From NCBI GenBank assembly GCA_903813345.2, contig CAIIXF020000009.1:34535259-34599258 (forward strand): 64,000 bases of DNA. Reading direction: 5' to 3'. This document shows, in pieces, positions 14,503 to 54,900 of the stretch (position 1 is the first letter of the stretch; each line of letters starts with the position of its first letter). Under the pieces are notes generated by a model. That model was given only the letters and a program-made list of their open reading frames with translations. It searched no databases and had not been told where the DNA came from. The position numbers and the translations under genes were made by a program. The stretch comes from Owenia fusiformis (taxonomy: Eukaryota > Annelida > Polychaeta > Sabellida > Oweniidae).

Positions 14503-15838
14503 TGGGAAGCATTTTCTGTTCTGCATAGATGTGCACGAAATAAGAAAATGTTCTTTGTAACAGTGTTGCCCATGTTGCAGATTCGCCCAAGTAAAGATAA
14601 TTTTTTTAATTCAATAATTTGAAGAATGTCTTTACAGTTTAAAAGTCCAAGCACAATATCAGTCTTCGTGCATCTGTATAGGCCTTGCAAGCGCTTGAGG
14701 ATAAATCGGTAGGACCGTTGTAATATAGGCACTGGGAGGTTGTTAATTCATTCCACAGTTCACAACCATGTAAGGCGGAAGGGATGCAAATAGTGTTAAT
14801 GAGCTTCAAGCCAGTTAGAGGATTTAGACCTTTCGGGTGAACGCCAACTCCAACGAGCGAAGCGAAAGTTGTTTTCAAGGATGAAGCAGCTTTGTCTATG
14901 GCCTTGTTCAGGCTGAGATTTGAATCATATATGTTTCCAAGATGTTTGAGTGAGGATACTTCAATTATTTCTCCATCAGATGACATCCATTTACGTTTTT
15001 GAATCAATAGGGAATTCTGGTGTTTAGATTCACCGAAAGTGATGACGTTGGATTTTTGCAGGTTAAAAACAAAACGCCATTTCTTAGAGTAGATTATGGC
15101 AGTTTGAATCAACGTATCAAGGCTAAGCTTAGTGTTGGCCAGAATAGAGATGTCGTCGGCGTAAGTTGGATTTCCACATAATATGGTACCCATCTGTCTG
15201 CATAAGTTTGAGCGTTCTAAATTACATAATAATTCATCTATGTACACTGTGTAGAGCCAGCCAGCAAGAATACTTCCCTGACGGATAGATTGCTTTATAG
15301 GGAACCAGCTGCTTATGTTGCCTTTAAAAATAATTGCACCCTGCATTCTTGAGTACAGTTTTCTTAAGATGTGCCATAGTCTACCTGTTATTCCAATGTT
15401 ATGAAGTTTGAAAAAGAGGCCATCGTGCCACACCGAATCGTAGGCCCGGGTACTGTCCATACATGCCATGAATGTCTTTTGGTTTAGTTCATCGTTATAT
15501 CGTACAGTCTCTAGAACGTTAAACGAGCAAGTGACGCTGCACATGTTAGGAGCGTAGGCATTTTGCTGATTGCTGTTTAAGTACTTACAATTGTTTCTGG
15601 TTTCACTTTCAAGTAAGCGTTGTCGAACTAGTTTTTCCCATAACTTTTCCAAGGCAGGTAGTAATGTAATGTCTCTGTAATTTTCCTTCGCCAATCTGGA
15701 TTTTGCTCCACCAACAAAACCAGATGGGTCTTCCTTTTGACATACATGTACAGGTATTTGAAAATTACTTTGCTCCCAACCCCGGGCTCCAAACATAGAT
15801 TTCACGAACATGAGACACGACTCCAAAACTGTTTGCAC
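14503..15838 (-). pseudogene. Non-LTR retrotransposon reverse transcriptase fragment
   Basis: A 399-codon minus-strand frame holds the core of a LINE-type reverse transcriptase: YRDITLLPALEKLW (fingers), FMACMDSTRAYDSVWHDGL (first catalytic Asp block), IRQGSILAGWLYTVYIDELL, and PTYADDISILAN with the YADD catalytic pair, then a thumb-like region (LKHLGNIYDSNLS). A frameshift near 14735 moves the continuation (LPILQRSYRFILKRLQGLYR) into another frame. The endonuclease and N-terminal half are absent; the fragment stops just before the inverted-repeat structure starting at 15865. Its C-terminal piece is at 9531-9994. Decayed. Confidence 0.85.
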
Positions 15839-17335: not shown

Positions 17336-17975
17336 CGGTAAACACGATACAAAAAAAATATGTCATATTCCGCAACGAATATGGCATATTCACTTGCGGT
17401 GCACGACAGATTCACCTGCTGTATATGGCATACAAACTAACCAATGAGAACGTGATACGGAAGTACGCAATTGTCAATTGCATCGATTGAACGAAATAGT
17501 AAAATGTTATTAATTATTGTAATGATTACTGAATCAGCAGTACTGTGTATCGAATATATTAACTTAGCAGAAGTATCAGTCACCAATCTCGCGTAACAAA
17601 CTTACTCAATCAATCCAGGATTCATATATTAGTACTCGACGCACTAACTATAACACGCGTGTATAATGGTAATATAGCGTAGTTTTACATTTAGAGTCGA
17701 TTCTCGCAACCAATCAAATCAAGGCTTTCTGTATCACGTTTTCACCTGCGGTATATGTCATATTCACCTGCGGTATATGGCATATTCCGCAAGTGAGTAT
17801 GACATATTCCGCAGGTGAGTATCGGGTATTCACTGACATCAATGTATCGCATATTCACTGCGGAATATCGCATACTCAACTGCGGAATATGCCATATACC
17901 GCAGGTGAGTATGGCATATTCACCCGTATCACAAATACCGCGCAACCATGAATGTATGCCATATACCGCGTAAAG
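17336..17975. mobile_element. Insertion of about 640 bp made of short palindromic repeats
   Basis: This segment splits the gene body (ending PVPCRPDC) from its Cys-rich tail (ADDLPPPC). Its ends are mutually inverse: TTACGCGGTA on the left, TACCGCGTAA on the right. The right third is built of a unit of about 26 bases in both orientations, containing ATATGCCATATACCGCAGG and CATATTCCGCAAGTGAGTAT. Probably a small non-autonomous element; the exact target duplication is ambiguous. Confidence 0.6.
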
Positions 17976-19884: not shown

Positions 19885-20001
19885 ATGGCATTCGCAACTA
19901 GTGCATTGGTAAGATCATTGAGCACATCAGCATCACGCCAAGCAGCCATAAAGCATGTAACTGTCATTGGAGGAGGTTTGATGGGAACCGGAATCACACA
20001 G
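19885..20001 (+). CDS. HADH: HADH exon 1
   Basis: Targeting peptide plus the NAD-binding glycine loop (GGGLMGTG); ends in phase 0 at CAG|GTAATT. Confidence 0.93.
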
Positions 20002-23000
20002 GTAATTTTCTAAATCCACAGCCAAAGATAAAACACTTAATCTCGAGTGAGAAGTTCATTTGGTTAATAACGAAATAATGAAATGTTACCATGTGTCTAC
20101 TTAGCAGTTTGTTCTATGTCATCCATCCTGCTAGGTTATATTGTGGAACGCAGCCAAACACGACAATGAAGGCAGTATTCTGAGGTTATAAAATCTAAAA
20201 AAATTCCCATTTGCAGCCCCTTGGAGATTTACGGAATTGAACAAAGTAGAGAACGTTGCGATCTCTCAACTTTAGTTCGTTGTTTTTCACCACTTTATGT
20301 GTAGTATTTTCATTTAGGAGGCGGTCTTATTTGAATGCATCATTTCGGGTCTTTATGAATCAATAGATCAATAAGCAGACTAAAAATACAATTTAGCAGT
20401 TTCTTTCATTGCGTACTGGGCCTGTTAGGCACGAAATACAATTTTGCAGTTTCGTTTGTTGCGTAATTGGGCCTTCTATAATCAGTAGCAAATGCTCGCA
20501 AAACATTTTCCAAAATATTTACTACCTTTTTCCTTGAAGACATGTTTGGGTGACACGTCATTAAGTCACATGATCGATACAGTAACTAGTCACATGATCA
20601 GACACGTGTCACATGATCAGACACGTGTCACGTGATCAGACACGTGTCACATGATCAGTCACATGAGCTTGCAAAATGGACAATCTAAATTTCCCAAAAT
20701 TCTGCTAAGATCAATATCGATATTTTATATATTTCGTTATTTTAACCATATGAACTTCTCACTAGAATAAGTGTTTTATCTTTACACTACAGAACAGAAA
20801 AATTGAATTTAAAAAATAAGCAATCAAAGGACCATATTGAAACAGTACACTGTATATGTAAAAATAGAAACATTTATACATGTCCTAACTTTTGTTTATT
20901 TTAGTTTGTTTTGTAGTTTAGCTATCATATCTGTGTCCTATATTTTGATGCTTCTCTGCCATGTTATTTTCGGAAAAATTAACATGGCTGAAACTCCCTA
21001 AATTACAAAAGGCCACAGCTTTACTGCACATTATATATAACTCTGAAATATACAAAAGTTAGGACAAGTACACATGTTTCTATTTTTCTATATACTATTG
21101 CAATATAGTCATTTGATTGGTTATTTTTTAAATTCAAAGTTGTTCCAAACATTTAAAAGTTATGATTTGGGGCAAGTGCCCAAGTAAAGATCATGATTTG
21201 GGCTTGCCCCAAATCAACTGCATACCTACTGTGACCCAATGTATTTCCCCAAATCCTTTTGAAGAAATGTGTTTTTGCAAATTGTACATGTTGTTCAATA
21301 AATATAAATGTGGATTAATTCTGAGCTCAGTGAACAATTAAGATTGTATACTATAGGTGGCAGCACAGAGTGGACACAACGTAACCATGTGTGATGTGTC
21401 TGATGATATTGTGCAGAAAGGCCTGGCTAGAATTCAAGACAGTCTAAAACGAGTAGTAAAGAAGAAATACAAGGATGATCCAACTGTAAGTAATCATGGG
21501 CCCCTTAAAGGTCCAATGAAGTAACATACATAATGGGACAGAGAACTACAGGGTGGTCCAAAAAAAATTGGAACATTTGTTAATTGAACACAAAACCATT
21601 ATTTTTCCTCTAAAATGCACCAAAATTTCACTGAGCATAGTTCAGTCACTTATCCCTCTTATGTAAAGTTTATAGGTGCAAACCACAAATTTAATGCATT
21701 AAACTAGTCAATGTTTGATATGACCCCCTTTTCTTAAATATACACTTGACAATTTCGCAGCTACTTTTTCAAGTATTCTTTATTTCAAAGCTTTAATGAA
21801 CATGTTGATTGCTATACACATTTTATACAATCATATTAAGATGAAATGAGATATTAACATCTATGGTTTACTGGAAAACTATTGTGTTATTGTCAACTTA
21901 AGAATACCCCAAATCATTATTTTTATTTAAGAGTAGGAAAGAAAGAACATGTCAGAGGTGAGTGATTGCATAACCCATACAGCTACTAAACTGACAAAAT
22001 CATTGTTTCCACTTTTCAGTAGAGGGGAAACTGACTAGTTATTTACAAGGCTTTATTAAAGACCACCTCTAAGCACACATAATATAATATATAATTTGTG
22101 TTCTGGGAAACTCCTTTATGATATTGATATACATATATTGATATATTCATTGAATATTATTCTTATTAGAACAAGAAAGGGGAGGGGGTTCATTTACCAG
22201 TCAAAACAGACTGCCCTGGCCTCTTTCTGGAGAATATTCAATCAGTAATATATCCAACAATAGCCATCAAAATATGATTGATACCCATCGATTGAGGTAA
22301 AAAAATGTTGAATATGTTCATATATTTGATCTTCTAAGGCAAACATATAAGTAGTTTGTTCAAGCTGAATTTTTAATCAAGATGGCTTGGACAAAATCAA
22401 ACGAACAGCAAAGTGAATGAATCATTTCAAAACTGAGTCCCAGGCTTCAACTCATAATTCAGGAGAAAGGGGGTCATATCAAACATTCTCTAGTTTAATG
22501 CATTAACTCTGTTGTTTGCACCTATAAACTTTACATCAGATAAATAAGTGATTGAACAATACTCAGTGAAATTTTGGTGCATTTTAGAGAAAAATAATGA
22601 TTTTGAGTTCAATTATCAAATGTTCCAATTTTTTTTGGACCACCCTGTACTTAGTTTAAAATCATTTGTTCCAAATTCAATAATATACCAGAAACTGGCA
22701 GTGTCTATGACCCATATTATGACACCTTTATCGATAACTTTCAGTGTTTTGAAGCTTGCCTATAATTTATTTAGTTTTAGAATTGTAAAATTCTTTAAAT
22801 GAGCATTCCTCAATGGAGTTCTTCATCTCACTTCCACAACTTTGACACTTCCAATTGATACACGCAATGAATATTTTTGTGTCAAGGTTAGAAACTAGCG
22901 ATTTACTATGTTTATTTTGTAAAAGATGGCCAATTACATAGTTTAGTGGGTATACATAAAGCAAGAATACTGACTAGAGTGGTGCTTTTCACAAAGGTAT

Positions 23001-26000
23001 CATTGTAAATATGTGTTATTGTGCACGAAATAAGCTGTAAATGTACACCAGCAGTAATCTGTATGTTTTACATTTTAGGCTGGACAGAAGTTCTTTGACA
23101 GTACTATGGAGAACATTAGAATTGACACAAATGTTGAACGAGTTGCTGCAAGCACTGATCTCGTCATTGAGGCTATTATAGAAAACCTTGACATCAAGCA
23201 GAAACTGTTTAGCTCTCTAGATAAAGTAGCACCACAGTAAGTCATTTCTACTTTACACATTATTTGAGTTTTATGTGCATGTACAGGGTGTCCCAAGATT
23301 TTTTGGATCAATTATCAATGTGATTATTGTCAAATTACATTTCTGTAGAATTATTAATTTGCCTATACTGCTTATCATTATAGACATTCAGTATTTGACT
23401 CTCTTTTTCATAGTAAACTTGAGTCTTCCACATCGTTTGTTATTATACTCAAAGTATATTTCACTTTATTTATTTAGACATACGTGAACATTTCTATTGT
23501 TTATCATTCTAGACATACAATATTTGCCAGTAACACATCATCATTGCCCATCAAAGACATAGCTTCAACCTGTGAACGTCAGGACAGATTCGGTGGCCTG
23601 CATTTCTTCAACCCAGTACCTGTGATGAAGCTTGTAGAGGTATTCAAATTGAAAATTTAGACTAAGGTGGAAAGATCTGCTCTGCCGGGAATGCCCATTA
23701 ATGTTTCCATTTGATATACACGGTCTCCATAAAGCCTCTTTACAAAGACTTTGTATTGGAATTGTAAAGGTATTTTATGGACAGCCTGTAGATATATGAA
23801 CATCAATATTACACAGTGTGAAACAATGCAGTTCTCCAAGATAGTGTTATCACATATTATCCATACTCATCAAATTTTTGTATTTTGAAAGTGATGGTCG
23901 TGACTCTAAAGGCCTTTAAACCATGTAATTTGTAAACATACTTGTTAAATACATCAATTTAAATGTGATATTGTTTGTCTTTGATTTGATTTAGGTTGTA
24001 CGATTTGGTGCTACAAGCAATGAGACATTCCAAAGTTTAACAGACTTTGGCCAAGCTGTAGGCAAGACAACAGTCAGTTGTAAGGTAATACAAATGGACT
24101 ACAATGTAGTTTTAAATCATTTATTCAAATAACTAGACAAATCAGAAATTATGCCTATAACATAAATATGAAAATAGTGTTGTTGTTGATCTCCTTGGTG
24201 ATACGAATTATTTGATTCATTGAATTTGCTATAATTGGCGGATTTAGTCAAAGGTCAATTCACAGATTTAAATATTTTTTTAAATACTTCAAAAATTGGT
24301 CATGAAATGCACTAGATTCACGATGATACATAAATAATTTAAATATGAATAAAATTGATGGGCACAAAAAATAATTCTTTGCAGTTTATTGAAAATTTGA
24401 CTGTGATTTATAATGGTAATTGATTGAAAATTATAAAAGCAGTTTCAATGTTTTTGGAAAGGAAATCACATTTTGTTATCATACATGTAGTTAAAAAGTT
24501 ATTGTAATATAAAGAATGTAAGGCTCATTGTCACTATCTTCAAAACCAATTTGTTCACTTTCTCCTTAGGATACTCCAGGTTTCATAGTCAGCTGCCTAC
24601 TATTTTCCTACATGCAATCACTTTTTATTTAGGATACTCCAGGGTTCATAGTTAACCGCCTTCTCGTGCCCTATATGATGGAAGCCGTGCGTATGCTAGA
24701 AAGAGGTAATATATACATGTACATGTTTCTTTAGTTTCTCAATATTTATTCAAAAATATGATTCAGCTATAAATTCAATAATAAAAACAAATAATACATA
24801 TCATTTTAGTTAAGAATTTTGTAAGATTGTATTGTATGTTAATAATTGATGTACTGTTATGCAAAGGCCTTTGGAATAACAAATTAATTTTTTTAACTGA
24901 ACTTAAACCAGAAAAATAGTATCATGAATATGAGCTATCATGAATTAAATTCAACTATGAAAGTGTATAACATGTATAATGTATATTATATAAAATGTCT
25001 GTTGTCAAAGCACAACTTGTATATAGGTGATGCTACAGCAAAGGATATAGACATTGCCATGAAACTTGGTGCGGGGTATCCTATGGGACCATTTGAACTA
25101 AATGACTATTGTGGCATAGATATTGGCAAAAACGTCATTGATGGTATTTGTAAATACAATTATGTTCCCGAGGGCAAAATAGTGCAGAATTATTGACATA
25201 CAACTGTTACATACCCAATTCACCCATGTAAAGTACATTCTACAATGTGTATTTCCATTATTGTCTAAATCATTCCCCAGTTATTTGTCAATTTTGCACC
25301 AATATTTTGCCATCAGGGTCCAATCCCATATATTCACCATAGTTAATTCGCTGAAACTACCTTTAGGTGATGCAAGTGCTAAAGACATCGACGTTGCTAT
25401 GAAATTAGGGGCAGGATATCCCATGGGTCCATTTGAACTTACAGATTATGTTGGCATTGATACTTGTAAATTTATAATGGATGGTGAGTTTTGATTGGAA
25501 AAGATATGACAGTCCTCAGTCTATCAGATTGGGTTGTGCTTCATGTTAAGGTCTTATGGAACACATCCACTGTACTACACTGTGTAATGGACTACATCTA
25601 TCAAGTGCAAGAACACACAGTGTATTATTGCTCTACCTGTTCTACCTGTGTGATCAACCAGATAACAAGATCAAGTACCTGTATAGGTAGAAAGTTGAAA
25701 CGAAATAGAATGCACCATGATTAAAACTTCTTTAATCAGATCATGAGCAATAATATACATTTGTTCTCTGTTCGGAGATGGGAATGAAACCTATCATGCT
25801 GCTTCAGCACATTTCTAGATGACTACACTCCCAAGCCTGGCTAGCAGATGGACCTACACACAGAAGCTTTAAACCATTCCCTAGCACCACCCACCAATTA
25901 GCAATAAGATTCTATCCCTGCTACCCGACTAACCTGTTCTAAATATTTTCCAACCCATTTACTCCTACACCTGCATGTATCCTTCCCTAGGTGAAGCTAG

Positions 26001-27257
26001 TGCACGAGATATAGACACCGCAATGAAGCTAGGAGCTGGGTATCCTATGGGGCCATTTGAATTGTGCGACTATGTTGGTCTTGACACAACTAAGTTTATA
26101 GTACAGGGTGAGGAAATAAGGACCTTCTATTAAACTTAAACCTATGGAGTTATTTCATCCTGGAGCTACTTCAACCAAGGAGTTGCTTCAAGATTGGCTA
26201 TTAATTCACATTTCTAAAATCTTCCTTATTGATGGTTTCAATTTATTTCTTTAAAAAACAAACATGGCAGAATGTAAATTGAAACTATAAGTCAAGATCT
26301 AAATAACCGTATGAATGAAATAGCTTAATGATGTAATAACTCCATGGATTGGATGTTAAACATGTACCAATACTAATATAATATGTTGTGATCCAACATG
26401 ATTTCCTTCGGTAATATAGAAATCCTAATACCACCTTAAGTTTGCACAATTTCCTTTTGATTCATATTATATCCCTTTAAAGCTAGCCTTATGTATATTT
26501 TGCAGTTATTATGTAGATTCATTTAGTTAATCTTTTCTAAGACTGATTTCCTTTCAGTTGTTATAATTTATCTATTTACAATTTTGATGTTGATTTTAAA
26601 AACAATGGAAAATGAAATTATAGATGTCAATATACACTGTAATTGTAGATTAATTTATCATATATATTTAGTATTTAAATAATTGTATTATATATGACTT
26701 GTTCAAAACATTTTACTGTGTGTACAATCTCCTACAATTTGGCAACACCATGTGACCTCAAACACCATTGGACCTCATGTTTAAGCCTATATTCATGTTT
26801 GGCAATTTAAAAATCATCAGTCATTTTATGATCTCGGGTATTATTGTCGAAGAAAAAATTTCAAACACAAATAGCCTCAACAGGCTGTTTATGCCTTGGT
26901 CACATTTGCTTCGATTTTTACTACAGCGCCCGGGCGATTGAGTATTTTGTTCAAAATTGAATGCAATATTGAACAAAACACTCAATCGGCCGGGCACCGG
27001 CAGGTGGATTGGAGCTAATGTGACCCAGGCATTACTTGTATCCAATGGGGAGCCAGGGTTGTGAAATGTATTGAGGGGAGAGGAGTCTATGTAGAAGAGG
27101 CACAGTGTATATATTCCAAGTTGGATTATTTTCAGGATGGCATGAGCTTGACCCCGACCAGCCACTCTTCAAGCCCAGTGAGCTGGTGAACAAACTGGTC
27201 GCAGAGGGAAAACTTGGAATGAAATCTGGAGAGGGATTCTATAGTTATAAGAAATAA
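19885..27257 (+). CDS. HADH: Mitochondrial 3-hydroxyacyl-CoA dehydrogenase (8 exons, exon 7 in three versions)
   Basis: Oxidises L-3-hydroxyacyl-CoA to 3-ketoacyl-CoA with NAD+, the third step of mitochondrial beta-oxidation. Exons: 19885-20001, 21357-21485, 23079-23236, 23513-23639, 23995-24084, 24633-24705, one of 25027-25143 / 25367-25483 / 25991-26107, and 27136-27257. All have GT-AG borders and compatible phases, giving 310 residues with one exon 7 (human HADH 314). Residues 1-20 look like a matrix-targeting peptide ([20 protein letters not shown]). The Rossmann motif [12 protein letters not shown] follows. SNTSSLP and the catalytic [13 protein letters not shown] (His and Glu) are present, as are [10 protein letters not shown] and the C-terminal dimer domain ending [10 protein letters not shown]. 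The start has a good context (ACACCATGG). HADH converges on BMS1. Confidence 0.95.
20395..20475 (+). repeat. Two-copy tandem repeat in HADH intron 1
   Basis: ATACAATTTAGCAGTTTC and ATACAATTTTGCAGTTTC occur about 50 bases apart, each followed by a GCGTA..TGGGCCT block: a diverged tandem duplication. Confidence 0.5.
20564..20667 (+). repeat. 19 bp tandem repeat with E-box cores in HADH intron 1
   Basis: Three and a half units of CACATGATCAGACACGTGT, preceded by two looser copies. Each unit contains CACGTG and CACATG cores plus TGATCA. CACGTG is the classic E-box of bHLH-Zip factors (USF, MYC, TFEB type). Position in the first intron of a metabolic gene would suit an enhancer, but it may only be a minisatellite. 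Confidence 0.7.
20802..21137. repeat. Inverted-repeat element in HADH intron 1
   Basis: Arms of about 85-90 bases (20802-20893 and 21052-21137) are inverse copies, sharing TTGAATTTAAAAAATAA and CCTAACTTTTGT, around a loop of about 160 bases. MITE-like, non-coding. Confidence 0.65.
21357..21485 (+). CDS. HADH: HADH exon 2
   Basis: Acceptor CTATAG, donor GTAAGT; 43 codons starting [17 protein letters not shown], the second strand of the Rossmann fold with the acidic residue (D) that binds the NAD ribose. Phase 0 on both sides. Confidence 0.93.
21549..22647. mobile_element. 1.1 kb MITE with mariner-type termini in HADH intron 2
   Basis: The termini CAGGGTGGTCCAAAAAAA and its complement are flanked by TA on both sides (21547-21548, 22648-22649). 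Inverse arms of about 185 bases lead inward to GACCCCC. TA target duplications and CAGGGTG ends fit the Tc1/mariner superfamily. No transposase frame remains. Confidence 0.8.
23079..23236 (+). CDS. HADH: HADH exon 3
   Basis: Acceptor TTTTAG, donor GTAAGT; encodes [17 protein letters not shown], the Rossmann-fold strand and helix after the NAD site. Ends two bases into a codon (CA|A). Confidence 0.93.
23284..23310 (+). repeat. Solo mariner-type terminus in HADH intron 3
   Basis: TA followed by CAGGGTGTCCCAAGATTTTT matches the end of a mariner-like MITE; no partner end is found nearby, so it is a truncated copy. Confidence 0.4.
23513..23639 (+). CDS. HADH: HADH exon 4 (catalytic exon)
   Basis: Encodes SNTSSLPI and [16 protein letters not shown]; His of HFFNP and Glu of KLVE form the catalytic dyad known from human HADH. 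The acceptor is CATTCTAG; a similar decoy (TTTAG|ACATAC) lies 36 bases upstream. Confidence 0.94.
23995..24084 (+). CDS. HADH: HADH exon 5
   Basis: Thirty codons, [12 protein letters not shown] to [10 protein letters not shown], phase 0 on both sides. Confidence 0.92.
24570..24620 (+). pseudogene. HADH: Decayed duplicate of HADH exon 6
   Basis: Directly upstream of exon 6, an acceptor-like TCTCCTTAG is followed by codons for [17 protein letters not shown], parallel to the true exon ([17 protein letters not shown]). The Asn-Arg of the functional exon is replaced by Ser-Cys and the 3' half, with its donor, is gone. A tandem exon duplication that decayed. Confidence 0.7.
24633..24705 (+). CDS. 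HADH: HADH exon 6
   Basis: Acceptor TTTAG, then [20 protein letters not shown] to the first base of a Gly codon, donor GTAATA. Contains the conserved NR pair of the family. Confidence 0.93.
25027..25143 (+). CDS. HADH: HADH alternative exon 7a
   Basis: A 117 bp exon with acceptor TATAG and donor GTATTT, phase 1 on both sides. It encodes the core block [15 protein letters not shown] shared by all three versions, then a divergent end, [14 protein letters not shown]. Compared with 7b, about 15 codons differ silently and 9 change the residue, mostly in the last third. Such a pattern implies selection on the protein and not recent decay. Its end is the furthest of the three from canonical HADH. 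Confidence 0.85.
25367..25483 (+). CDS. HADH: HADH alternative exon 7b
   Basis: A 117 bp exon, acceptor CTTTAG, donor GTGAGT, same phases as 7a and 7c. It encodes [20 protein letters not shown], then [18 protein letters not shown]. Open throughout, with intact splice sites. Only 223 bases separate it from 7a. Confidence 0.87.
25991..26107 (+). CDS. HADH: HADH alternative exon 7c (most canonical)
   Basis: A 117 bp exon, acceptor CCCTAG, donor GTGAGG. It encodes [20 protein letters not shown], then [18 protein letters not shown], the closest of the three to vertebrate HADH ([14 protein letters not shown]). Because each version is 39 codons with equal phases, choosing one, joining two or skipping all would all keep the frame. 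Confidence 0.92.
26893..27032. repeat. GC-capped hairpin in the last HADH intron
   Basis: GCCCGGGCGATTGAGTATTTTG and CAAAACACTCAATCGGCCGGGC are inverse arms around a short loop (26925-26995). Outer flanks TGGTCACAT and ATGTGACCCA also pair. MITE-like. Confidence 0.7.
27136..27257 (+). CDS. HADH: HADH exon 8 (last)
   Basis: Acceptor TTTTCAG; encodes [20 protein letters not shown] and ends [11 protein letters not shown] with TAA at 27255-27257. Confidence 0.94.
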
Positions 27258-36900: not shown

Positions 36901-39900
36901 TTCCGCATCTTTCTGGTCATCTGCGATAAAGAAATCATTATAATACAAGCAGTTCATAAGGGAGGCACAAACAGGCCAAGGATTAAGAGGTGATATGTTT
37001 GTTATTGTCAAGCTACATTTGATATAGACTAGTGAATTTTGTTTGGTATGGGGAAATTATTAAGCAACTTGTCTGCAGTCATTTTATATAGACAAGTGAA
37101 TCTTGTTTGGTATGGGAAAATAACTAAGCAACTGGTCTGCAGTCATTTTATATAGACAAGTGAATCTTGTTTGGTATGGGGAAATTACTAAGCAACTGGT
37201 CTGCAGTCATTTTATATAGACAAATGAATCTTGTTTGGTATGGGGAAATTACTAAGCAGCTGGTCTGCAGTCATTTCATCTCCAAGCATTAGGCCAATCA
37301 TTATGATGTATCATAAGTGATAGGAGGAGACACAAAGTAACTTTGAAAAGATATTACTAACCCATTTTCAAACCTGAATATTAATATTGATTTATTAAGG
37401 CCAAACATTCATCTGACCTATATTTGACAGCTTTAACTTTTCTTCTGTTAAACATATTCATGGTACAAGGTGTAATAACAATTTATCTACATGTCATCCT
37501 TAAAATGATCTTTTCCTCCTGATAAATATAAGTTATTTCATCGTTGATTTTCAATATGATAAGTATAGTTACAATGTTGAAGAAATAGCTTAAATGTCAC
37601 TCTTATCATCAGAATAAGTCTACGTACAATATTAAAGCAATGGTTTACTGACATTCTCATTATCAGGATACATGTATTTATAATATTAAAGCAATGGCTT
37701 AATGTCACTTTTGTCATCAGAATAAGTGTAGGTACAATATTAAGCAATGGTTTACTGTCATCCCCATTATCAGAATAAGTGTATTTACAATGTTGAAGCA
37801 ATGGCTTAATGTCACTATCATCATCAGAATAAGTGTAGGTACAATATTAAAGCAATGGTTTATTGTCATTCTCATTATCGGAATAAGTGTATTTACAATG
37901 TTGAAGCAATGACTTAATGTCACTATCATTATCAGAATAAGTGTAGGTACAATATTGAAGCAATGGTTTACTGTCATTCTCATTATCAGGACAAATGTAT
38001 TTACACTGTTGAAGCAATGACTTAATGTCACTATCATTATAAGAATAAGTGTAGGTACAATATAAAAGCAATGGTATATTGTCATTCTCATTATCGGAAT
38101 AAGTGTATTTACAATGTTAAAGCAATGGCTTAATGTCACTCTTGTCATCAGAATAAGTGTAGGTACAATATTAAGCAATGGTTTACTGTCATTCTCATTA
38201 TCGGAATAAGTGTATTTACAATGTTAAAGCAATGGCTTAATGTCACTCTTGTCATCAGAATAAGTGTAGGTACAATATTAAGCAATGCTTTACTGTCATT
38301 CTCATTATCGGAATAAGTGTATTTACAATGTTAAAGCAATGGCTTAATGTCACTCTTGTCATCAGAATAAGTGTAGGTACAATATTAAGCAATGGTTTAC
38401 TGTCATTCTCATTATCGGAATAAGTGTATTTACAATGTTAAAACAATGGCTTAATGTCACTCTTGTCATCAGAATAAGTGTAGGTACAATATTAAAGCAA
38501 TGTTCACTGCCTTTCTCATTATCAGGATAAATGTATTTACAATATTAAAGCAATGACTTAATGTCACTATCATCATCAGAATAAGTGTAAGCACAATATT
38601 AAAGCAATGTTCACTGCCTTTCTCATTATCAGGATAAATGTATTTACAATATTAAAGCAATGACTTAATGTCACTATCATCATCAGAATAAGTGTAGGTA
38701 CAATATTAAAGCAATGTTCACTGCCTTTCTCATTATCAGGATAAATGTATTTACAATATTAAAGCAATGGCTTAATGTCACTATCATCATCAGAATAAGT
38801 GTAAGTACAATATTAAAGCAATGTTCACTGCCTTTCTCATTATCAGGATAAATGTATTTACAATATTAAAGCAATGACTTAATGTCACTATCATCATCAG
38901 AATAAGTGTAGGTACAATATTAAAGCAATGTTCACTGCCTTTCTCATTATCAGGATAAATGTATTTACAATGTCGAAGCAATGGCTTAATGTCACTATCA
39001 TTATCAGAATAAATGTAGGTACAATATTAAAGCAATGTTCACTGCCTTTCTCATTATCAGGATAAATGTATTTATGATGTCGAAGCAATGGCTTAATGTC
39101 ACTCGTGTCATCAAAATAAGTGTAGGTAAAATATCAAAGCAATGGTTTACTATCATTCTCATTATCAGGATAAGTGTATTTACAATGTTAAAGCAATGGC
39201 ATAATGTCACTCGTGTCATCAGAATAAGTGTAGGTAAAATATCAAAGCAATGGTTTACTATCATTCTCATTATCAGGATTAATGTATTTACAATGTTGAA
39301 GCAATGGCATAATGTCACTCTTGTCATCAAAATAAGTGTAAGTACCAATATAAAAGCAATGGTTTACTGTCATTCTCATTATCAGGATAAATGTATTTAC
39401 AATATTAACGCAATGGCTTAATGTCACTCTTGTCATCAAAATAAGTGTAGGTAAAATATCAAAGCAATGGTTTATTGTCATTCTCATTATCAGGATTAAT
39501 GTATTTACAATGTTAAAGCAATGGCATAATGTCACTATCATTATAAGAATAAGTGTAGGTACAATATAAAAGCAATGGTATATTGTCATTCTCATTATCG
39601 GAATAAGTGTATTTACAATGTTAAAGCAATGGCTTAATGTCACTCTCTTGTTATCAGAATAAGTGTAGGTACAATATCAAAGCAATGGTTTACTGCCTTT
39701 CTCGTTATCAGGATAAATGTATTTACAATGTTGAAGCAATGGCGTAATGTCACTATCATCATCAGAATAAGTGTAAGTACAATATTAAAGCAATAGTTCA
39801 CTGCCTTTCTCATTATCAGGATAAATGTATTTACAATGTTGAAGCAATGACTTAATGTCACTATCATTATAAGAATAAGTGTAGGTACAATATAAAAGCA

Positions 39901-42900
39901 ATGGTATATTGTCATTCTCATTATCGGAATAAGTGTATTTACAATGTTAAAGCAATGGCTTAATGTCACTCTCTTGTTATCAGAATAAGTGTAGGTACAA
40001 TATCAAAGCAATGGTTTACTGCCTTTCTCATTATCAGGATAAATGTATTTACAATGTTGAAGCAATGGCGTAATGTCACTATCATCATCAGAATAAGTGT
40101 AAGTACAATATTAAAGCAATAGTTCACTGCCTTTCTCATTATCAGGATAAATGTATTTACAATGTTGAAGCAATGGCTTAATGTCACTATCATTATCAGA
40201 ATAAGTGTAGGTACAATATTAAAGCAATGGTTTACTGTCATTCTCATTATCAGGATAAATGTATTTACAATGTTGAAGCAATGGCTTAATGTCACTATCA
40301 TTATCAGAATAAGTGTAGGTACAATATTAAGCAATGATTTACTGTCATTCTCATTATCAGAATAAGTGTATTTACAATGTTAAAGCAATGGCTTAATGTC
40401 ACTATCATCATCAGAATAAGTGTAGGTAAAATATCAAAGCAATGGGTTACTGTCATTCTCATTATGAGGATAAGTGTATTTACAATGTTGAAGCAATGGC
40501 TTAATGTCACTATCATCATCAGAACAAGTGTAAGTACAAAATATTAAAGCAATGGTTCACTGCCTTTCTCATTATCAGGATAAATGTATTTATAATGTTA
40601 AAGCAATGGCGTAATGTCACTATCATCATCAGAATAAGTGTAAGTACAATATTAAAGCAATGGTTCACTGCCTTTCTCATTATCAGGATAAATGTATTTA
40701 CAATGTTAAAGCAATGGCGTAATGTCACTATCATCATCAGAGTAAGTGTAAGCACAATATTAAAGCAATGGTTTACTGTCATTCTCATTATCAGGATAAA
40801 TGTATTAACAATGTTGAAGCAATGGCTTAATGTCACTATCATCATCAGAATAAGTGTAAGTACAATATTAAAGCAATGGTTTACTGTCCTTCTCATTATC
40901 AGAATAAGTGTATTTACAATGTTGAAGCAATGGCATAATGTCACTCTTGTCATCAAAATAAGTGTAGGTACAATATTAAAGCAATGTTCACTGCCTTTTT
41001 CATTATCAGGATAAATGTATTAACAATGTCGAAGCAATGGCTTAATGTCACTATCATTATCAGAATAAGTGTAAGTACAATATTAAAGCAATGTTCACTG
41101 CCTTTCTCATTATCAGGATAAATGTATTTACAATGTCGAAGCAATGGCTTAATGTCACGATCATTATCAGAATAAATGTAGGTACAATATTAAAGCAATG
41201 TTCACTGCCTTTCTGCCTTTCTCATTATCAGGATAAATGTATTTACAATGTCGAAGCAATGGCTTAATGTCACTATCATCATCAGAATAAGTCTAGGTAC
41301 AATATTGAAGCAATGGTGTACTGTCACAATCATCATTAGGATATGTGTCACATGCATCATTCATGGCATCAATGTTAAGTTTGATGAACTCTTCATCAGC
41401 ACTGATCCCATCCAAATCCATATGGAAAATTGGTAAATCAATATCATCCTTTACAATGTCATTATTGGTACCTTTCCTTCTAGTGCTATCTTGTTGGATA
41501 GCTTCATGAGTACCATCCCATTTGGCTCCATCATTGGTAACACTCTCATTGGGATCATCCCATCTAGCACACTCATTGGTACCATTCTGCCTGATGCCTT
41601 CTCTGATATTGTCCTGTATCGCATCTTCATTGGCACCATCCAGAGTTACGCCTTCATTGCCATTTTGGACATCATTCCATCTTCCACATTCACTGGCACC
41701 ATCCTGCCTGATGCCTTCATTGGTGTTGTCCTGTATCATATTTTCATTGGCACCATTCCGACTTATGCCTCCATTGCCATTTTGCACATCACCAAAATCT
41801 AGAGCCTCTTTTAATCTCAACCAAAAAGCAGGGTTTTGGGAGGAATCTTTTGGCCATTGTAGATAGGTTTTCTGACCAAGGTAGCTCTTTAAACTGGAAG
41901 ATATTTTATCCTTGTTTAAATCTTTTAAATCATGCAGCAAAATCATCACCATCGTATCATAGGTCGCATCGAGACGTTTATTTTTTGAGAGTTCAAACTC
42001 AAAATTACACCATCTGCTTTCTAAATAATTGTTAGACATGAGAATGATCACTTTGCGGCTCACCTCAATAAAATGTACAATATTACTGACGATAAATTCA
42101 CCAGGAATAAATTCACGATCATGAATGGATAAGCAAAGTCCAAATTCATTCTCCATTTTTTCCTGTATTTTAACAATGACTGATATATCATCACTGCTAC
42201 TGTAGGATAAGAAAGCATGGTAGTTGAATACTCTGTAGTCATCACATTGTGTCTTTCTTCGCAGGAGTCTCCTTACCATCTGTCGGCTCATAAGCCACAT
42301 ATACTCAAGGCGATGTCGTTTAACATAGATTATACAGCATATGATACCCAGAATGATCATAACACCTAAAGAAGTCGCAACTGACACGATAAGCGTCATC
42401 TGACACATTAATGTTGTTTTTTCAATAGATAATAAATGTATGAGGATATACTCAGAGTTTCTCAGGCAATTGTATGATTTATTGTTATGAAAATGCACTC
42501 TAGTTGTATTCATCCACTTAATGAACTCAAGTTGACTACAGCCACAAAGTAAAGGATTGTGTTCCAGGTCTACAACAAGTCTAGATTGATTTTGCCGAGT
42601 AATGTCATCCAATTGTGACATCATAAATGATGACAGATGGGTTATCAGATTAGATGAGACATTCAACAGTTCCAGGTTCATATTTTTACGTAAATCTATG
42701 TCCAGTGAATTGATTCCATTTGCGCTGAGGTTGATGTACTGCACACTCACCATGTCAGAAAATGTGTGAAGGTCTGGCTGGGTAAACTTTGTATTTTCCA
42801 AATCGATGGATTTCACATTTGAACAATTTTGAAAGATTAATGTTGTTTTATTCTGTTTACTATAAACAGATTTAAGGTCTAGGTTCCCAAGAAGAAGCAT

Positions 42901-45900
42901 TTCTAGTTTAGGCCAGTTTTTACAAGAGAATGAATCTAGATCTGTAAACACTGTGTTCAAGTTTTGGATGTTCAAATATGTTAGGTTATACAGTCCTGTC
43001 ATTGCACCATGTAGACCAGCTATGATGGCTCCAGACATATCAATAACTTTAACATGGTTCGGGGAAACAATGCAGAATTTCTCATCATGAAAATGATACT
43101 CCTTTGATATGATCATGTTGTCAATGTACACTTCTTCTCGACTAATTGGCATCTGCAAGCAATTTGATGGATAACTGGGACGTTCTTTGTGGTTTATCCT
43201 AATTGGTACATGAGCATTGCTTCCGATATCAAACACCTTCAATGAGTACATAAGTTTAAAGTTTACACCATAGAAAATGTTTCCATGAATCCAAAAGTTT
43301 AAGCTGAGATAGTTTCCTCGGAGGGAGATGTACTCTAGTAAACCAAAGTATGCACCGAAACCTGCTTCCAAGTAGCTGATATGATTTCCATCTAGCTTCA
43401 AAACCTTCACTTTCAATCTCTTAAAAATTATCATCTTTTGTTTTTTCAGCACGTAACTTTGAATAGCCACACTTTTGTCATCAATGTCATTCGTGAATGA
43501 TAAATCCAAGTAATCTATTGTTTGATTCAATTTAACCAGTGGATGAAGTCTATTCATTACTCTGTCCAGTCCAAGCATGCTATTTCCTCTGAAGTCCAAA
43601 TATTTGAGACTTCTCAAGTCAGCCAGTGCTTTTTCTTCAAAGACACGCAACAATGACGATGTACTATAATAATCGAATATCATAACACCAGACTGACTGT
43701 TCTTCAAATATTCCAATCTTCCAAGTCCTTGTAGGGATTTCTGCCATATTGTCTTGATTTGATTCCTACTGATATCCAAATACCTCAGATTTATGTACCT
43801 TTTGAATGCATAATTCTGGATGTCCAACACAGTTGGTATATCAGTGAGCTGTAGGTACTGAATTGAAGCTGGGAATGTCTGAGGAACACTAGTCACATTC
43901 ATTCTCTTGCAAATGTACCGTATGTCACTACAGATGTAACATCCATCAGGACATGCATGATTGGTCTCCTTAGTAAAATCAATGTCTGGTTTATCAGGGT
44001 ACTGATACCTCGCTGATATTGTTGGCACCCCTCCCAATATGAGTACAAATATATTCATTATCTTCCAAAGAAGCATCACTGCTGTGAAGTTCATTTTGTG
44101 TTCATGAATCAAATCTGTATGATCAGGGTGTTCTGCCTTATATATACAGTTCTGTAGGCCTATAATCACTGCACTGGGTGGAAAGGAACCACTGAAAATG
44201 AGTGTGGCCTAGTCCTCAGTCAGTTGCGTAGCCAGGATTATCCACAAATCTCCACCTTCATTGGGGTTCCTCATATAAAACCATTTTCGTAATTTCTTTA
44301 CATACAATTTACACCCCTCCAAAAGTGTGTCAACCGTAGACTCCCCCATGGAGTGTTTAAGCCTCCTTATGTTTGAATTATTATTCGTATAATATGTACA
44401 GTGTATAAAGAAAAAACTGTTTTAGTGCTAGAAAAAATAAATTGACATCATGTCCGATACTTCCATTTTGTTTTCGCAAAATACAATTGAATTTGAAAAA
44501 GTTAATAGACAATTTGATTTTCTATGTTAAAATAGTTTTTGGTGAATCTTTTACTGAATAGAGATCCTGAAATCTGAAGGCAAGATCATGATTTTAATAT
44601 TACATTTTTTTAATGAAATCTAAATCAAGAGTTAACATATATTGAGCTAAGTTTAAGGGGAAATCCTAACACATCTTTAAAGGCCCCATATAAAGTTTAA
44701 ACCACTTTGACTTATATTGTAGTCTTAACCAATGTTATCAAAGTGTGATATGTGAAAGTTTTTTTTGAAATTTCAAAAAGTGATTTTTGATAGACTTTTT
44801 GTTCCAAAATTTGTGACTTTATTAAAAACCAACTTTTAGAGGTCATTCATATCTTCTAATTAGCCACAATTCATACCAATGCATAGCATTCATCTTCCCA
44901 TGTTTTTTTCCGAAAAAATTAAGAAAATCGGTTCATAAATAAGCGAGAAATGAACTTATCAGTGCAAGAAAATGGTTCTGAGAAAAATGCATTTCAAAAT
45001 TTTAGTTCTCATAGAAACCAATGGTACAATGATATCTAAAACATAATTTATTCTTCTTTTTAACCTGGTTAGACAATCATCATTGGTTTTTTATGAAAGT
45101 CTAACATATTTAGAAAAGATTGACATCGAAAAAAAAATTTCAATTTTTTTCAAAAAGTTTTTGGTACCTTAGTGACATCACTAATGTTTCAAAATATTTT
45201 TGATATGCTAAAACATTGAAGTAGCCCATTAAATATGGCATTTTATTATTGAAATATTGTGTCCTTTGTTCAACCTTTGCATTGGTGTTAAAAAGATAAT
45301 CTTTTTTGAAATGCATTAAGAAATATTTGATGATTAAGAAATTTCAACTTTTTTTGAAAAATGGCGGGAAATTTGAATATTTGAGAAATGAAATGCTCAC
45401 AACTTTTTTTTCAAAAATTTTTTTTTGTTCAAAAATCTCTAGAACCACTTTTTAAGTCCTGACAAATAGTAAATGAATGATAAAGAAATATTTTCAAACT
45501 TTAGACGGGGACTTTAAGGAATTCGAACATATCCATCTTTTTAAAAAGAGCTACTTTAGGGAGAAATCCTCATTTCTTATTTATTGAGAGAGACTTTAGA
45601 GTTCACACAAAGATATGTCAAATTCTGAAACATGCAATTCCCACAATTTAATACTGAGATTATGATTTTTCTAAAAAACTCCAAATCAAAAGATTTTATT
45701 TGGTATTTCAGATGATAATTAATAATGTAATAGGCTGAAATTCCAAAACGACCAAATTGAAATAACACAATATCTGTTGTACTCCGTAGGCTCTAAAATT
45801 AAACCTTTTTCAAATTGCAATGCCTTACAACAAAGAACACCTACTCGCAGGCTGGTATCGAAAAATTTGTCCGCTGTGACGGAGCGTGCTATTTTGCATA

Positions 45901-48900: not shown

Positions 48901-51900
48901 AGACAATCCCAACCCGTGCCTAAGGTTGCCAAACTTTAAGAGAGAAGTGTACAACTTTATTATGTTTTTTATTTACTGGTCATACAAATTGAATTTAATA
49001 TTTCTGGTTTTCCACAAATATTTTTTGGGGAAACCCTGACTGGGGGTTCGTCCGAACCCATCGAACCCCCGGTCCCTACGGCTATGCTCTGTATAATAGT
49101 ACTTAATGAATTCAGACTTCCTCTTGTGGTTACAAGGATTTCTTTACATAAAATGATGATATCATGTTTGAAAAAACAAACTATCATAGCAGCCAATCAT
49201 AAGCGCCATGACATTTCTTAACAGGTCTTCAAGACCAGTTTCAATATTGACTGTTCGAAAGAATGTCACTTGTCTATTTACTTTAATTTGATTTCTAAGA
49301 ACTCTAATCATAGAACTAGTATCATTTTGTAATACACTAGATACATATATTTTCGAATACATTCTGGAAGAAATAAAGTATATAATAGCCAATCAAAAGG
49401 TATCATATAATGCATTACAATTGTTATCACCCTCTCCTTGGTGGTTAAGTGATTATATGCCTGCACGGATAGTGATGTATCCTGGCACACAGACACTATA
49501 CATTGAAGTCTTGATGATTATCAAAAATTCATTTCCTTATGTGATAACATATATCATTGTAAGTGGTTTCAAAATATACTTTCAGGTGACTCCCTTACAC
49601 AAGTCAATCTGACTGAAATGTAAACATTCACACTAAGTCAATGTTTATTTCTATATTTTGTTCAAATAGTACACATTTCACTCAGAATATGTCCATAATG
49701 ACCTAAGATTTGAAGGATTTGAAGTTTCAGCTATAGGTCAATGTGATATCATTTTTTTGATCACATAAATACATGGCTTGATGCTTTGAATTACTCAATC
49801 ATAATGTTTATTCTGCTTCATTCAAATATTACTATTTTTGGTGAAAGGAGTCTGCAAAGGTGCCGCAAAAGCAATGAATGAAGAAATATAATCGGAACAT
49901 GATAAAGTAACCATCCAATATGCAGAAATATCCCCTTTATTCCCCTACTTGTCCATACCCGAACATGAATGATCAAAATGTTTCCTCGAAATGAAGTTAG
50001 GAACACTCAATAATGTCATATAATAATGTAGGAAACATTTTAATACAAAATTAATATCACTTCATCTGTGATTTATCTTAGATTCAAGTGTAGACAATCA
50101 CACTGGGATTTATGCAATTTACACAATCTAGCTTTTAAAACGTATGTTATGGGTCTAATGTGACAAATAAATGCATGCAATTGACAATTTTATACATTGG
50201 ATCTGACTGACAAGGGTTTCAAAAGTGCCAAAAATAGACAATTCGTTCTGAATCTAAATGGATGCAAGTTAAGGTGCCTTACTAGTATTCTAATCAGTCA
50301 TCCAACAATGGAACATAACAGACCATTTGTTGCATAAATGCTTTGACTGACTAAAAAGGAATGAATCTGATATGTCAAGTAAATTTTAAATGTGACAAAT
50401 GACCCCTCATGGGAGCCCTTTAGTGTACTTGGTGATGAGTGTAAGTTAACATGTATCTTTATTAGATCTGTTTTGTACCTTGCATAATTTTTATATTCAA
50501 AGTTATATTGTATATTCTGTATGTACGAGTATTTGTAAAGTAAATAATAACTCTTTTAGGCTGTTATGGGACAGTACAGAAACACATGAATTGTGGTTTC
50601 ATTCATTGGATGGATGACACCTGAGCAGGTTTATAATATAATTTATCCAGGCATTTTAGAGTCAAGGAGTTTGCACAGCCATATAGTATATCATAAAAGT
50701 CAAAATGTGGCAAAGTGTCAGAATTAAACATCAGTTGAAGATGTTTACCATTGAGTTTTTTCGAGCTTCTTAAGTGTAGGTACAATATTAAAGCAATAGT
50801 TTACTGTCATTCTCAGGATGAGTGTATTTACAATGTTGAAGCAATGGTTTACTGTCATTGTCATTCTCATTATCAGAATAAGTATAGTTACAATGTTGAA
50901 GCAATGGCTTAATGTCACTATCATCATCAGAATAAGTGTAGGTACAATATTAAAGCAATGGTTTACTGGCATTCTCATTATCAGGACAAATGTATTTACA
51001 ATGTTGAAGCAATGGCGTAATGTCACTATCATATAGAATAAGTGTATTTACAATGTTGAAGCAATGACTTAATGTCACTATCATTATCAGAATAAATGTA
51101 GGTACAATATTAAAGCAATGGTTTACTGTCATTCTCATCATCAGGACAAATGTATTTACAATGTTGAAGCAATGGCTTAATGTCACTTTCATCATCAGAA
51201 TAAGTGTAGGTACAATAATAAAGCAATGGTTTACTGTCATTCTCATTATCAGAATAAGTGTATTTACAATGTTGAAGCAATGGCATAATGTCACTATCAT
51301 CATCAGAATAAGTGTAAGTACAATATTAAAGCAATGTTCACTGCCTTTCTCATTATCAGGACAAATGTATTTACAATGTTGAAGCAATGGCGTAATGTCA
51401 GTATCATTATCAGAATAAGTGTAATTACAATATTAAAGCAATGGTTTACTGTCATTCTCATTATCAGGACAAATGTATTTACAATGTTGAAGCAATGACT
51501 TAATGTCACTATCATTATCAGAATAAGTGTAATTACAATATTAAAGCAATGGTTTACTGTCATTCTCATTATCAGGACAAATGTATTTACAATGTTGAAG
51601 CAATGACTTAATGTCACTATCATTATCAGAATAAGTGTAGGTACAATATTAAAGCAATGGTTTACTGTCATTCTCATTATCAGAATAAGTGTATTTACAA
51701 TGTTGAAGCAATGGCTTAATGTCACTATCATCATCATAATGTCACTCCTTACATCAGAATAAGTGTAGGTACAATATCAAAGCAATGGTTTACTGTCATT
51801 CTCATTATCAGGATAAATGTATTTACAATATTAAAGCAATGGCTAAATGTCACTCTTGTCATCAAAATAAGTGTAGGTAAAATATCAAAGCAATGGTTCA

Positions 51901-54900
51901 CTGTCATTCTCATTATCAGGACAAATGTATTTACAATGTTAAAGCAATGGCTTAATGTCACTATCATCATCAGAATAAGTGTAATTACAATATTAAAGCA
52001 ATGGTTTACTGTCATTCTCATTATCAGGACAAATGTATTTACAATGTTGAAGCAATGACTTAATGTCACTATCATTATCAGAATAAGTGTAGGTACAATA
52101 TTAAAGCAATGGTTAACTGTCATTCTCATTATCAGAATAAGTGTATTTACAATGTTGAAGCAATGGCTTAATGTCACTATCATCATCATAATGTCACTCC
52201 TTACATCAGAATAAGTGTAGGTACAATATCAAAGCAATGGTTTACTGTCGTTCTCATTATCAGGATAAATGTATTTACAATATTAAAGCAATGGCTTAAT
52301 GTCACTCTTGTCATCAAAATAAGTGTAGGTAAAATATCAAAGCAATGGTTCACTGTCATTCTCATTATCAGGACAAATGTATTTACAATGTTAAAGCAAT
52401 GGCTTAATGTCACTATCATCATCAGTATAAGTGTAGGTACAATATTAAAGCAATGTTCACTGCCATTCTCATTATCAGGATTAATGTATTTACAATGTTA
52501 AAGCAATGGCATAATGTCACTCTCTTGTCATCAAAATAAGTGTAGGTAAAATATTAAAGCAATGTTCACTGCCTTTCTCATTATCAGGATAAATGTATTT
52601 ATTACAATGTCGAAGCAATGGCATAATGTCACTCTTGTCATCAGAATAAGTGTATTTACGATGTTGAAGCAATGGCTTAATGACACTATCATTATCAGAA
52701 TAAGTGTAGGTACAATATTAAAGCAATGTTCACTGCCATTCTCATTATCAGGACAAATGTATTTACAATAATGAAGCAATGACTTAATGTCACTATCATT
52801 ATCAGAATAAGTGTAGGTACAATATTAAAGCAATGCTCACTGCCATTCTCATTATCAGGATAAATGTATTTACAATGTTGAAGCAATGGCTTAATGTCAC
52901 TATCATCATCAGAATAAGTGTAAGTACAATATTAAAGCAATATTCACTGCCTTTCTCATTATCAGGATAAATGTATTTACAATGTCGAAGTAATGGCTTA
53001 ATGTCACTATCATTATCAGAATAAATGTAGGTACAATATTAAAGCAATGTTCACTGCCTTTCTCATTATCAGGATAAATATATTTACAATGTTGAAGCAA
53101 TGGCTTAATGTCACTATCATCATCAGAATAAGTCTAGGTACAATATTGAAGCAATGGTGTACTGTCACAATCATCATTAGGATATGTGTCACATGCATCA
53201 TTCATGGCATCAATGTTAAGTTTGATGAACTCTTCATCAGCACTGATCCCATCCCAATCCATATGGACAATTGGTAAATCAATATCATCCTTTACAATGT
53301 CATTATTGGTACCTTTCCTTCTAGTGCCATCTTGTTGGATAGCTTCATGAGTACCATCCCATTTGGCTCCATCATTGGTACCACTCTCATTGGGATCATC
53401 CCATCTAGCACACTCATTGGTACAATCCTGCCTGATGCATTCATTGATATTGTCCTGTGTCGCATCTTCATTGGCACCATCCAGAGTTACGCCTTTATTG
53501 CCATTTTGCACATCATTCCATCTTCCACATTCATTGGCACCATCCTGCCTGATGCCTTCATTGGTGTTGTCCTGTATCGCATCATTGACACCATCCAGAG
53601 TTACGCCTTCATTGCCATTTTGGACATCATTCCATCTTCCACATTCACTGGCACCATCCTGCCTGATGCCTTCATTGGTGTTGTCCTGTATCGCATCATT
53701 GGCACCATTGGCACCATCCAGAGTTACGCCTTCATTGCCATTTTGGACATCATTCCATCTTCCACATTCACTGGCACCATCCTGCCTGATGCCTTCATTG
53801 GTGTTGTCCTGTATCATATTTTCATTGGCACCATTCCGACTTATGCCTCCATTGCCATTTTGCACATCACCGAAATCTAGAGCCTCTTTTAATCTCAACC
53901 AAAAAGCAGGGTTTTGGGAGGAATCTTTTGGCCATTGTAGATAGGTTTTCTGACCAAGGTAGCTCTTTAAACTGGAAGATATTTTATCCTTGTTTAAATC
54001 TTTTAAATCATGCAGCAAAATCATCACCATCGTATCATAGGTCGCATCGAGACGTTTATTTTTCGAGAGTTCAAACTCAAAATTACACCATCTGCTTTCT
54101 AAATAATTGTTAGACATGAGAATGATCACTTTGCGGCTCACCTCAATAAAATGTACAATATTACTGACAATAAATTCACCAGGAATAAATTCACGATCAT
54201 GAATCGATAAGCAAAGTCCAAATTCATTCTCCATTTTTTCCTGTATTTTAACAATGACTGATATATCATCACTGCTACTGTAGGATAAGAAGGCATGGTA
54301 GTTGAATACTCTGTAGTCATCACATTGTGTCTTTCTTCGCAGAAGTCTCCTCACCATTTGTCGGCTCATAAGCCACATATACTCAAGGCGATGTCTTTTA
54401 GCATAGATTATACAGCATATGATACCCAGAATGATCATAACACCTAAAGAAGTCGCAACTGACACAATAAGCGTCATCTGACACATTAATGTTGTTTCCT
54501 CAATAGATAATAAATGGATGAGGATATACTCAGAGTTTCTCAGGCAATTGTATGATTTATTGTTATGAAAATGCACTCTAGTTGTATTCATCCACTTAAT
54601 GAACTCAAGTTGACTACAGCCACAAAGTAAAGGATTGTTATCCAGGTCTACAACAAGTCTAGATTGATTTTGTCGAGTAATGTCATCCAATTGTGACATC
54701 ATAAATGATGACAGATGGGTTATCAGATTAGATGAGACATTCAACAGTTCCAGGTTCATATTTTTACGTAAATCTATGTCCAGTGAATTGATTCCATTTG
54801 CGCTGAGGTTGATGTACTGCACACTCACCATGTCAGAAAAAGTCTGAAGATCTGGTTTGGCAAACTTTGTATTTTCCAAATCGATGGATTTCACATTTGA

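Follow-up and report, generated by a model that had tools for sequence, protein, structure and literature searches.

PKM (exons 9 and 10) and KHK (exons 3A and 3C) are metabolic enzymes with homologous alternative exons, each a vertebrate case with two such exons and with proof at the RNA and protein level, and in PKM the choice of exon alters subunit assembly. HADH (L-3-hydroxyacyl-CoA dehydrogenase), a mitochondrial enzyme of fat oxidation, is generally regarded as a housekeeping protein that exists mainly in a single form. In the annelid Owenia fusiformis, a complete HADH gene can be read on the plus strand of a 64,000-nucleotide stretch of contig CAIIXF020000009.1 (GenBank assembly GCA_903813345.2, positions 34,535,259 to 34,599,258; hereafter the window, whose own numbering is used below), and it carries three tandem copies of exon 7, named 7a, 7b and 7c. 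The locus resembles PKM and KHK in being that of a metabolic enzyme with homologous alternative exons and differs from them in the enzyme and in the number of these exons, which is two in each of the vertebrate genes. The evidence assembled here makes it probable that this is a single HADH gene whose three ancient exon 7 copies are used as alternatives, mostly one per mRNA.

A comparable case is OGDH (2-oxoglutarate dehydrogenase), a metabolic enzyme of mitochondria in which PMC7969005 describes exons 4a and 4b as mutually exclusive products of an ancient exon duplication that differ in their response to calcium. In contrast to OGDH, the present locus has three copies, the gaps between them are 223 nt (7a-7b) and 507 nt (7b-7c), and the AG-free stretches upstream of their 3' splice sites are just 16 nt (7a), 24 nt (7b) and 82 nt (7c). 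The tandem duplicated or mutually exclusive exon clusters of human genes presented in PMC5740500 and PMC9741552 are alike in that homologous neighbours swap, protein structure is kept and the duplication is often ancient; the word HADH is absent from the main texts of both surveys. The arrangement is of a known kind, that of tandem duplicated exons as in OGDH, and appears new for HADH. No report that exon 7 of HADH is duplicated or used alternatively was found among the literature matches listed, which cover few subscription papers and no genome annotation. The earlier note on this DNA knew of no description of mutually exclusive splicing in HADH. PMC8116494 concerns HADHB, and in PMC12318918 and PMC3800588 HADH comes up only in connection with a pseudoexon variant. 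Annotations of related genomes may already list these isoforms.

The HADH gene and its three exon 7 copies

The gene model, as read from the sequence with exons joined at GT-AG borders, consists of the following exons (a slash marks an exon border).

19885-20001, plus strand: HADH exon 1, coding part with the start codon, 117 bp coding, donor CAG/GTAATT
21357-21485, plus strand: HADH exon 2, 129 bp, the length that c.133-1 and c.261+1 give for the human exon
23079-23236, plus strand: HADH exon 3, 158 bp (human 262-419 implied by variants)
23513-23639, plus strand: HADH exon 4, 127 bp, encoding the residues aligned with the catalytic pair Ser137 and His158 of the human enzyme
23995-24084, plus strand: HADH exon 5, 90 bp (human 547-636 implied by variants)
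24633-24705, plus strand: HADH exon 6, 73 bp (human 637-709 implied by variants)
25027-25143, plus strand: exon 7a, 117 bp, 39 codons, the most derived version
25367-25483, plus strand: exon 7b, 117 bp
25991-26107, plus strand: exon 7c, 117 bp, nearest to human and with the most pyrimidine-rich acceptor among the three
27136-27257, plus strand: HADH exon 8, coding part with the stop codon, 122 bp coding

Spliced with any single one of 7a, 7b and 7c, the model yields an HADH of 310 residues. The 7c isoform aligns with human HADH over almost its whole length (3rqs, residues 1-309, E 8.4e-128), all three isoforms contain both Pfam domains, 3HCDH_N (PF02737, about 9e-63) and 3HCDH (PF00725, 1.6e-34 to 1.5e-35), and Ser137 and His158 of human HADH are conserved in the predicted protein when it is aligned to 1f0y and 3rqs. 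The human splice variants given in PMC8567654 imply exon ends at c.132, 261, 419, 546, 636 and 709, and the resulting lengths of human exons 2-6 (129, 158, 127, 90 and 73) are identical to those found here, so the three copies occupy the place of human exon 7. The same review counts eight exons in human HADH, which leaves room for just one exon 7. Human HADH (PDB 3rqs, 1f0y) is the same enzyme with equal lengths of exons 2-6, and its P258 is kept in 7a, 7b and 7c, but its gene has space for one exon 7 only, against three here.

No other HADH gene was found in the searched part of the 498-Mb genome: a protein search with the 7c isoform gave ten matches there, and they correspond one by one to the ten exons described above. 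A processed copy (retrocopy) that could reveal an isoform was not found, that search giving only these same exons. A genome search with the Pfam C-terminal domain hit, besides 7a, 7b and 7c, one further place, on another contig; this was rejected as HADH, since by eye it looks like the trifunctional alpha subunit. The assembly gave no COX1 match. It contains one exact match to let-7, which marks an animal and probably a bilaterian, and no match, with up to one mismatch allowed, to miRNA strings of ambulacrarians or lophotrochozoans, strings that may themselves contain errors.

What the earlier note had said of the three exons proved correct as to position, length (117/117/117), phase (1 at entry and at exit), AG...GT borders, open reading frame and a 15-residue core common to all; 7a and 7b are indeed set apart by 15 silent codon changes and 9 replaced residues. 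The corresponding counts are 10 silent and 13 residue differences for 7a/7c and 18 and 8 for 7b/7c, and 13 of the 39 positions vary among the three copies. Nucleotide identity amounts to 85/117 (7a/7b), 77/117 (7a/7c) and 82/117 (7b/7c), or 66-73%. This likeness is beyond chance, as 7c found no ungapped match better than 52/117 when the introns around it were shuffled 60 times. As in a mutually exclusive exon cluster, the copies are adjacent homologues that agree in length and phase, each has AG and GT at its borders (a statement about the borders only), and each supplies the same region of the protein with the fold, judged by sequence, left unbroken, the Pfam 3HCDH model being matched over its full length (1-97 of 97) in the three isoform sequences with similar scores of 118.7 (7a), 122.0 (7b) and 121.5 (7c) bits. 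Identity to the human peptide is 27/39 for 7a, 32/39 for 7b and 34/39 for 7c. A recent duplication that carried its flanks along was considered and set aside because the introns that separate the copies no longer share useful similarity in the same orientation, the only such matches being 10-15 nt long with E 0.6-0.7. The best match between introns is inverted (31 nt, 81%, E 0.004) and gives the 16-bp helix discussed below.

Age and selection

The proportion of differing silent sites (pS) is 0.78, 0.81 and 0.82 for 7a/7b, 7a/7c and 7b/7c, and that of replacement sites (pN) is 0.14, 0.21 and 0.16. Compared by Fisher tests on rounded counts, silent and replacement changes gave p 6.6e-9 (7a/7b), 3.8e-8 (7a/7c) and 2e-10 (7b/7c). 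Pairwise codon models estimated omega, the ratio of replacement to silent rates, at 0.034 (7a/7b), 0.087 (7a/7c) and 0.015 (7b/7c), the last of which can be read only as 'very low' since the divergence of this pair hit its bound in the fit, and they rejected omega = 1 with p 3.2e-12, 4.8e-7 and 1.7e-10 in the same order. The 15-residue core is identical in 7a, 7b and 7c, though pS inside it is 0.76-0.89. The view of the earlier note that the copies look old and selected is thereby borne out by saturated silent sites, low pN and the rejection of omega = 1 in all three pairs. By these measures, the three exon 7 copies are old and kept under selection at the protein level. Taken with typical animal substitution rates, the saturation suggests an age of more than about 100 million years, and it predicts that all three exons are common to fairly distant relatives.

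Conservation across a much wider range was assessed in bacteria and archaea, with 80 loci kept among the 591 confirmed relatives listed, a set collected using the 7c protein. Seven exon positions (D9, G15, G21, P22, D27, G30 and D32) are invariant in 80/80 of these relatives, and all seven are retained in 7a, 7b and 7c. Position P22 corresponds, by alignment numbering, to human P258, the residue altered in the hyperinsulinism variant P258L reported in PMC8567654. The top-scoring isoform was 7c for 61 of the relatives, 7b for 19 and 7a for 0, a comparison that favours 7c because of how the set was gathered. Residues unseen in the 80 relatives are D2, I10, N26, C29, I33, G34 and I38 in 7a, D2 and V10 in 7b, and E2 in 7c. 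An unseen residue is by itself no sign of decay, since the human D2 is unseen too. In 4000 runs of simulated neutral change starting from 7b, the core, the seven invariants and the reading frame survived together in 9.3% at 0.05 substitutions per site, in 0.75% at 0.1, in 0.37% at 0.125 and in none at 0.2 or above.

Splice signals and probable exclusive use

Nine donors were scored with a donor matrix; the best two of the nine are those of 7b (6.29) and 7c (4.99), and 7a (ATG/GTATTT) scores -0.64 and exon 4 (GAG/GTATTC) -1.0. The acceptor pyrimidine fraction among the three copies is highest in 7c (0.73) and lowest in 7a (0.50). The earlier description of the splice sites as intact therefore holds for the AG and GT of all three copies but needs qualifying for 7a, which is weak at donor and acceptor alike, even if the exon 4 donor scores equally low. 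The survey in PMC5740500 counted three classes of enforcement in human clusters, namely a frame shift, a short distance between donor and branch point (<50 nt) and a mix of U2 and U12 introns, and reported that these leave some clusters uncovered. Distant branch points as in OGDH were considered for the present locus and are unsupported, given how close the nearest upstream AG lies in each case.

Several observations weigh against exclusive use of an old and selected set. All three of the surveyed enforcement classes were looked for in the DNA and none is present: skipping exon 7 and including all three copies both stay in frame (117 = 3 x 39), the gaps of 223 and 507 nt are long enough for joining, and a U2/U12 mix was not seen, all borders being GT-AG and none U12-like by eye. 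The DNA features found therefore do not force exclusivity. Among the introns of the cluster, no shared docking site pairing with several introns was found. Six of the residues of 7a that are unseen in the prokaryotic relatives are unique to it (D2 is common to 7b and human), and to the bound met in the pairwise fit of 7b/7c must be added a star-tree model with omega per branch, in which omega = 1 gave p 0.047 (7a), 0.67 (7b) and 0.041 (7c). These branch-wise tests are weak, with three sequences, branch lengths at bounds and silent change whose saturation leaves them low in power. A brief recent neutral phase in one copy may be compatible with the branch-wise model.

Pairing between introns offers one candidate for a regulatory element. 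The strongest contiguous helix among the six intron pairs is a possible 16-bp RNA helix that flanks 7a and would loop it out.

24832-24847, plus strand: intron 6 arm of the possible 16-bp RNA helix, partner 25188-25203
25188-25203, plus strand: intron 7a-7b arm of the possible 16-bp helix, partner 24832-24847

An equally strong helix arose in 1/300 shuffles, or about 0.02 after six tests, and the other five intron pairs were equalled by 38, 250, 239, 134 and 240 of 300 shuffles. The weaker 12-bp helix (38/300) uses a different site in intron 6, and the second-site pairing value of 1/300 is biased because the site was picked after the result of the helix test. In folds of the short piece 24800-25250 the mean pair probability of the 16-bp helix is 0.92, versus 0 in three long-context folds. 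Energies of whole-intron duplexes, which are sums across long gapped duplexes, were reached or beaten by 17/200 shuffles for intron 6 with intron 7a-7b and by 2/200 for intron 6 with intron 7c-8, the remaining four pairs being unexceptional (191/200, 139/200, 86/200 and 60/60). In the known clusters treated in PMC6071210, left and right introns tend to pair with internal introns, a tendency that the 16-bp helix fits. In the docking-selector cluster of Dscam, one site is complementary to several selectors and conserved across species, whereas the helices here use different sites in intron 6. No second selector for the same site was found, the helix is absent from the long folds, and a docking-selector model is kept as a lead only. 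The 16-bp helix around 7a is only suggestive as a splicing element.

The frame-neutral lengths and permissive gaps would also allow the three exons to be used non-exclusively, some mRNAs carrying two or three copies or skipping exon 7, and longer or shorter proteins resulting that still read to the normal stop. This explanation is unlikely, as the copies have been selected as full mutual replacements with length held constant. Mutual exclusivity of 7a, 7b and 7c is likely, and for such one-at-a-time use trans-acting repression, with or without intronic pairing, would be the remaining kind of mechanism. The case raises the question of how exclusivity is maintained with three frame-neutral exons and long gaps.

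The status of 7a and of the duplicates

Alternatively, 7a alone could be losing its function, having been relaxed or silenced lately, so that a 7b/7c pair remains. Its weak donor and acceptor, its six own residues unseen in the 80 relatives and its 27/39 identity to human would all fit, and letting 7a evolve neutrally for 0.125 substitutions per site makes a three-branch model only slightly worse (p 0.047). Against this stand the intact core and seven invariants with no stop or indel, a state kept by so few of the simulated exons at that same distance, together with the pairwise omega for 7a/7b and the exon 4 donor, which is equally low in score. Loss of 7a is improbable, and three functional copies remain the preferred reading.

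A further duplicate lies directly upstream of exon 6.

24570-24632, plus strand: partial exon 6 relic with a 3' splice-site-like start, 20 codons and an in-frame TAG

This partial, stop-ended exon 6 copy was absent from the earlier note. It agrees with exon 6 in 28 of its first 36 bases, the best of 1000 shuffles of intron 5 reaching 21, and is a relic or a possible poison 3' splice site, whose use would insert 20 codons ahead of the TAG. That such a decayed copy lies nearby shows that dead duplicates arise in this gene, and 7a and 7b might likewise be non-functional with 7c alone spliced in; this is very improbable, as saturated silent sites together with omega of 0.015-0.087 in all pairs, 7a/7b included, would be hard to obtain from unused copies. 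An assembly artefact that merged extra exons of HADH paralogues into one locus is scarcely credible even with one assembly examined, since in the searched part of the genome exons 1-6 and 8 were not found a second time beside the 10/10 matches in this locus, and intron 6 and 25144-25990 were each found once in searches that skipped common words.

Probable consequences for the protein

Exon 7 encodes residues 232-270, inside the C-terminal domain PF00725 (residues 211-308), as the earlier note had anticipated in placing the segment within the dimer domain. The note's further proposal, that alternative use could tune chain-length preference or dimer pairing, is conjectural. For Mycobacterium FadB2, compared with human HADH, PMC6333283 describes a C-terminal domain that makes the dimer on its own, an active site in the cleft between domains, and catalytic roles for Ser137 and His158. 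The residues aligned with Ser137 and His158 lie outside exon 7. If each mRNA takes one of 7a, 7b and 7c, the chosen exon would contribute 39 residues to a helical C-terminal domain of 98, and the choice would leave the NAD domain, both catalytic residues (Ser and His) and the C-terminus as they are. Because the C-terminal domain forms the dimer in relatives and the catalytic residues fall outside the exon, exchanging the exon most likely affects how the subunits pair, how stable the enzyme is, the active-site cleft or the binding of a partner, and does not switch the reaction. Isoform 7c is probably the default form and 7a a restricted one, the latter because of its weak splice sites and most unusual residues.

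Since the dimer interface lies solely in the domain partly encoded by exon 7, up to six dimer types (three homodimers and three heterodimers) could form in cells that make more than one isoform. Perhaps, then, a core beta-oxidation enzyme has acquired a three-state splice switch whose six dimer types tune flux, stability or the binding of a partner (glutamate dehydrogenase, for instance) according to tissue, stage or temperature, a doubtful proposal. Mammalian HADH is reported in PMC8567654 to bind and restrain glutamate dehydrogenase. Proteins that differ only in which of three naturally selected 39-residue versions they contain would be a ready set for dissecting pairing, substrate range, stability and partner binding.

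Other features in the window

Within the HADH gene, intron 2 contains an inverted repeat at 21544-22652 whose arms, 64 nt and 129 nt long, are 94% and 90% complementary, probably a foldback element or one like a miniature inverted-repeat transposable element (MITE). Upstream of the gene, a retroelement reverse transcriptase fragment lies on the minus strand at 14639-15838 (PF00078, 8.9e-22), and many short CATATTC/GAATATG-like repeats in both orientations fill 17340-17930, downstream of an open reading frame (ORF) of 267 residues with no Pfam match; by eye this region is transposon-like. Two long single-ORF Toll-like receptor genes occupy the minus strand at 41293-44169 and 53134-56232, the first of which has leucine-rich repeat (LRR) and TIR domains. 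They are 91% identical over 897 aligned positions, and their repeat-like C-terminal tails differ in length. Tandem arrays with a similar 54/108-bp unit lie at the 3' ends of both receptor genes (37558-41326 and 50771-53189), and at 40519-41014 the array yields repetitive ORFs on both strands.
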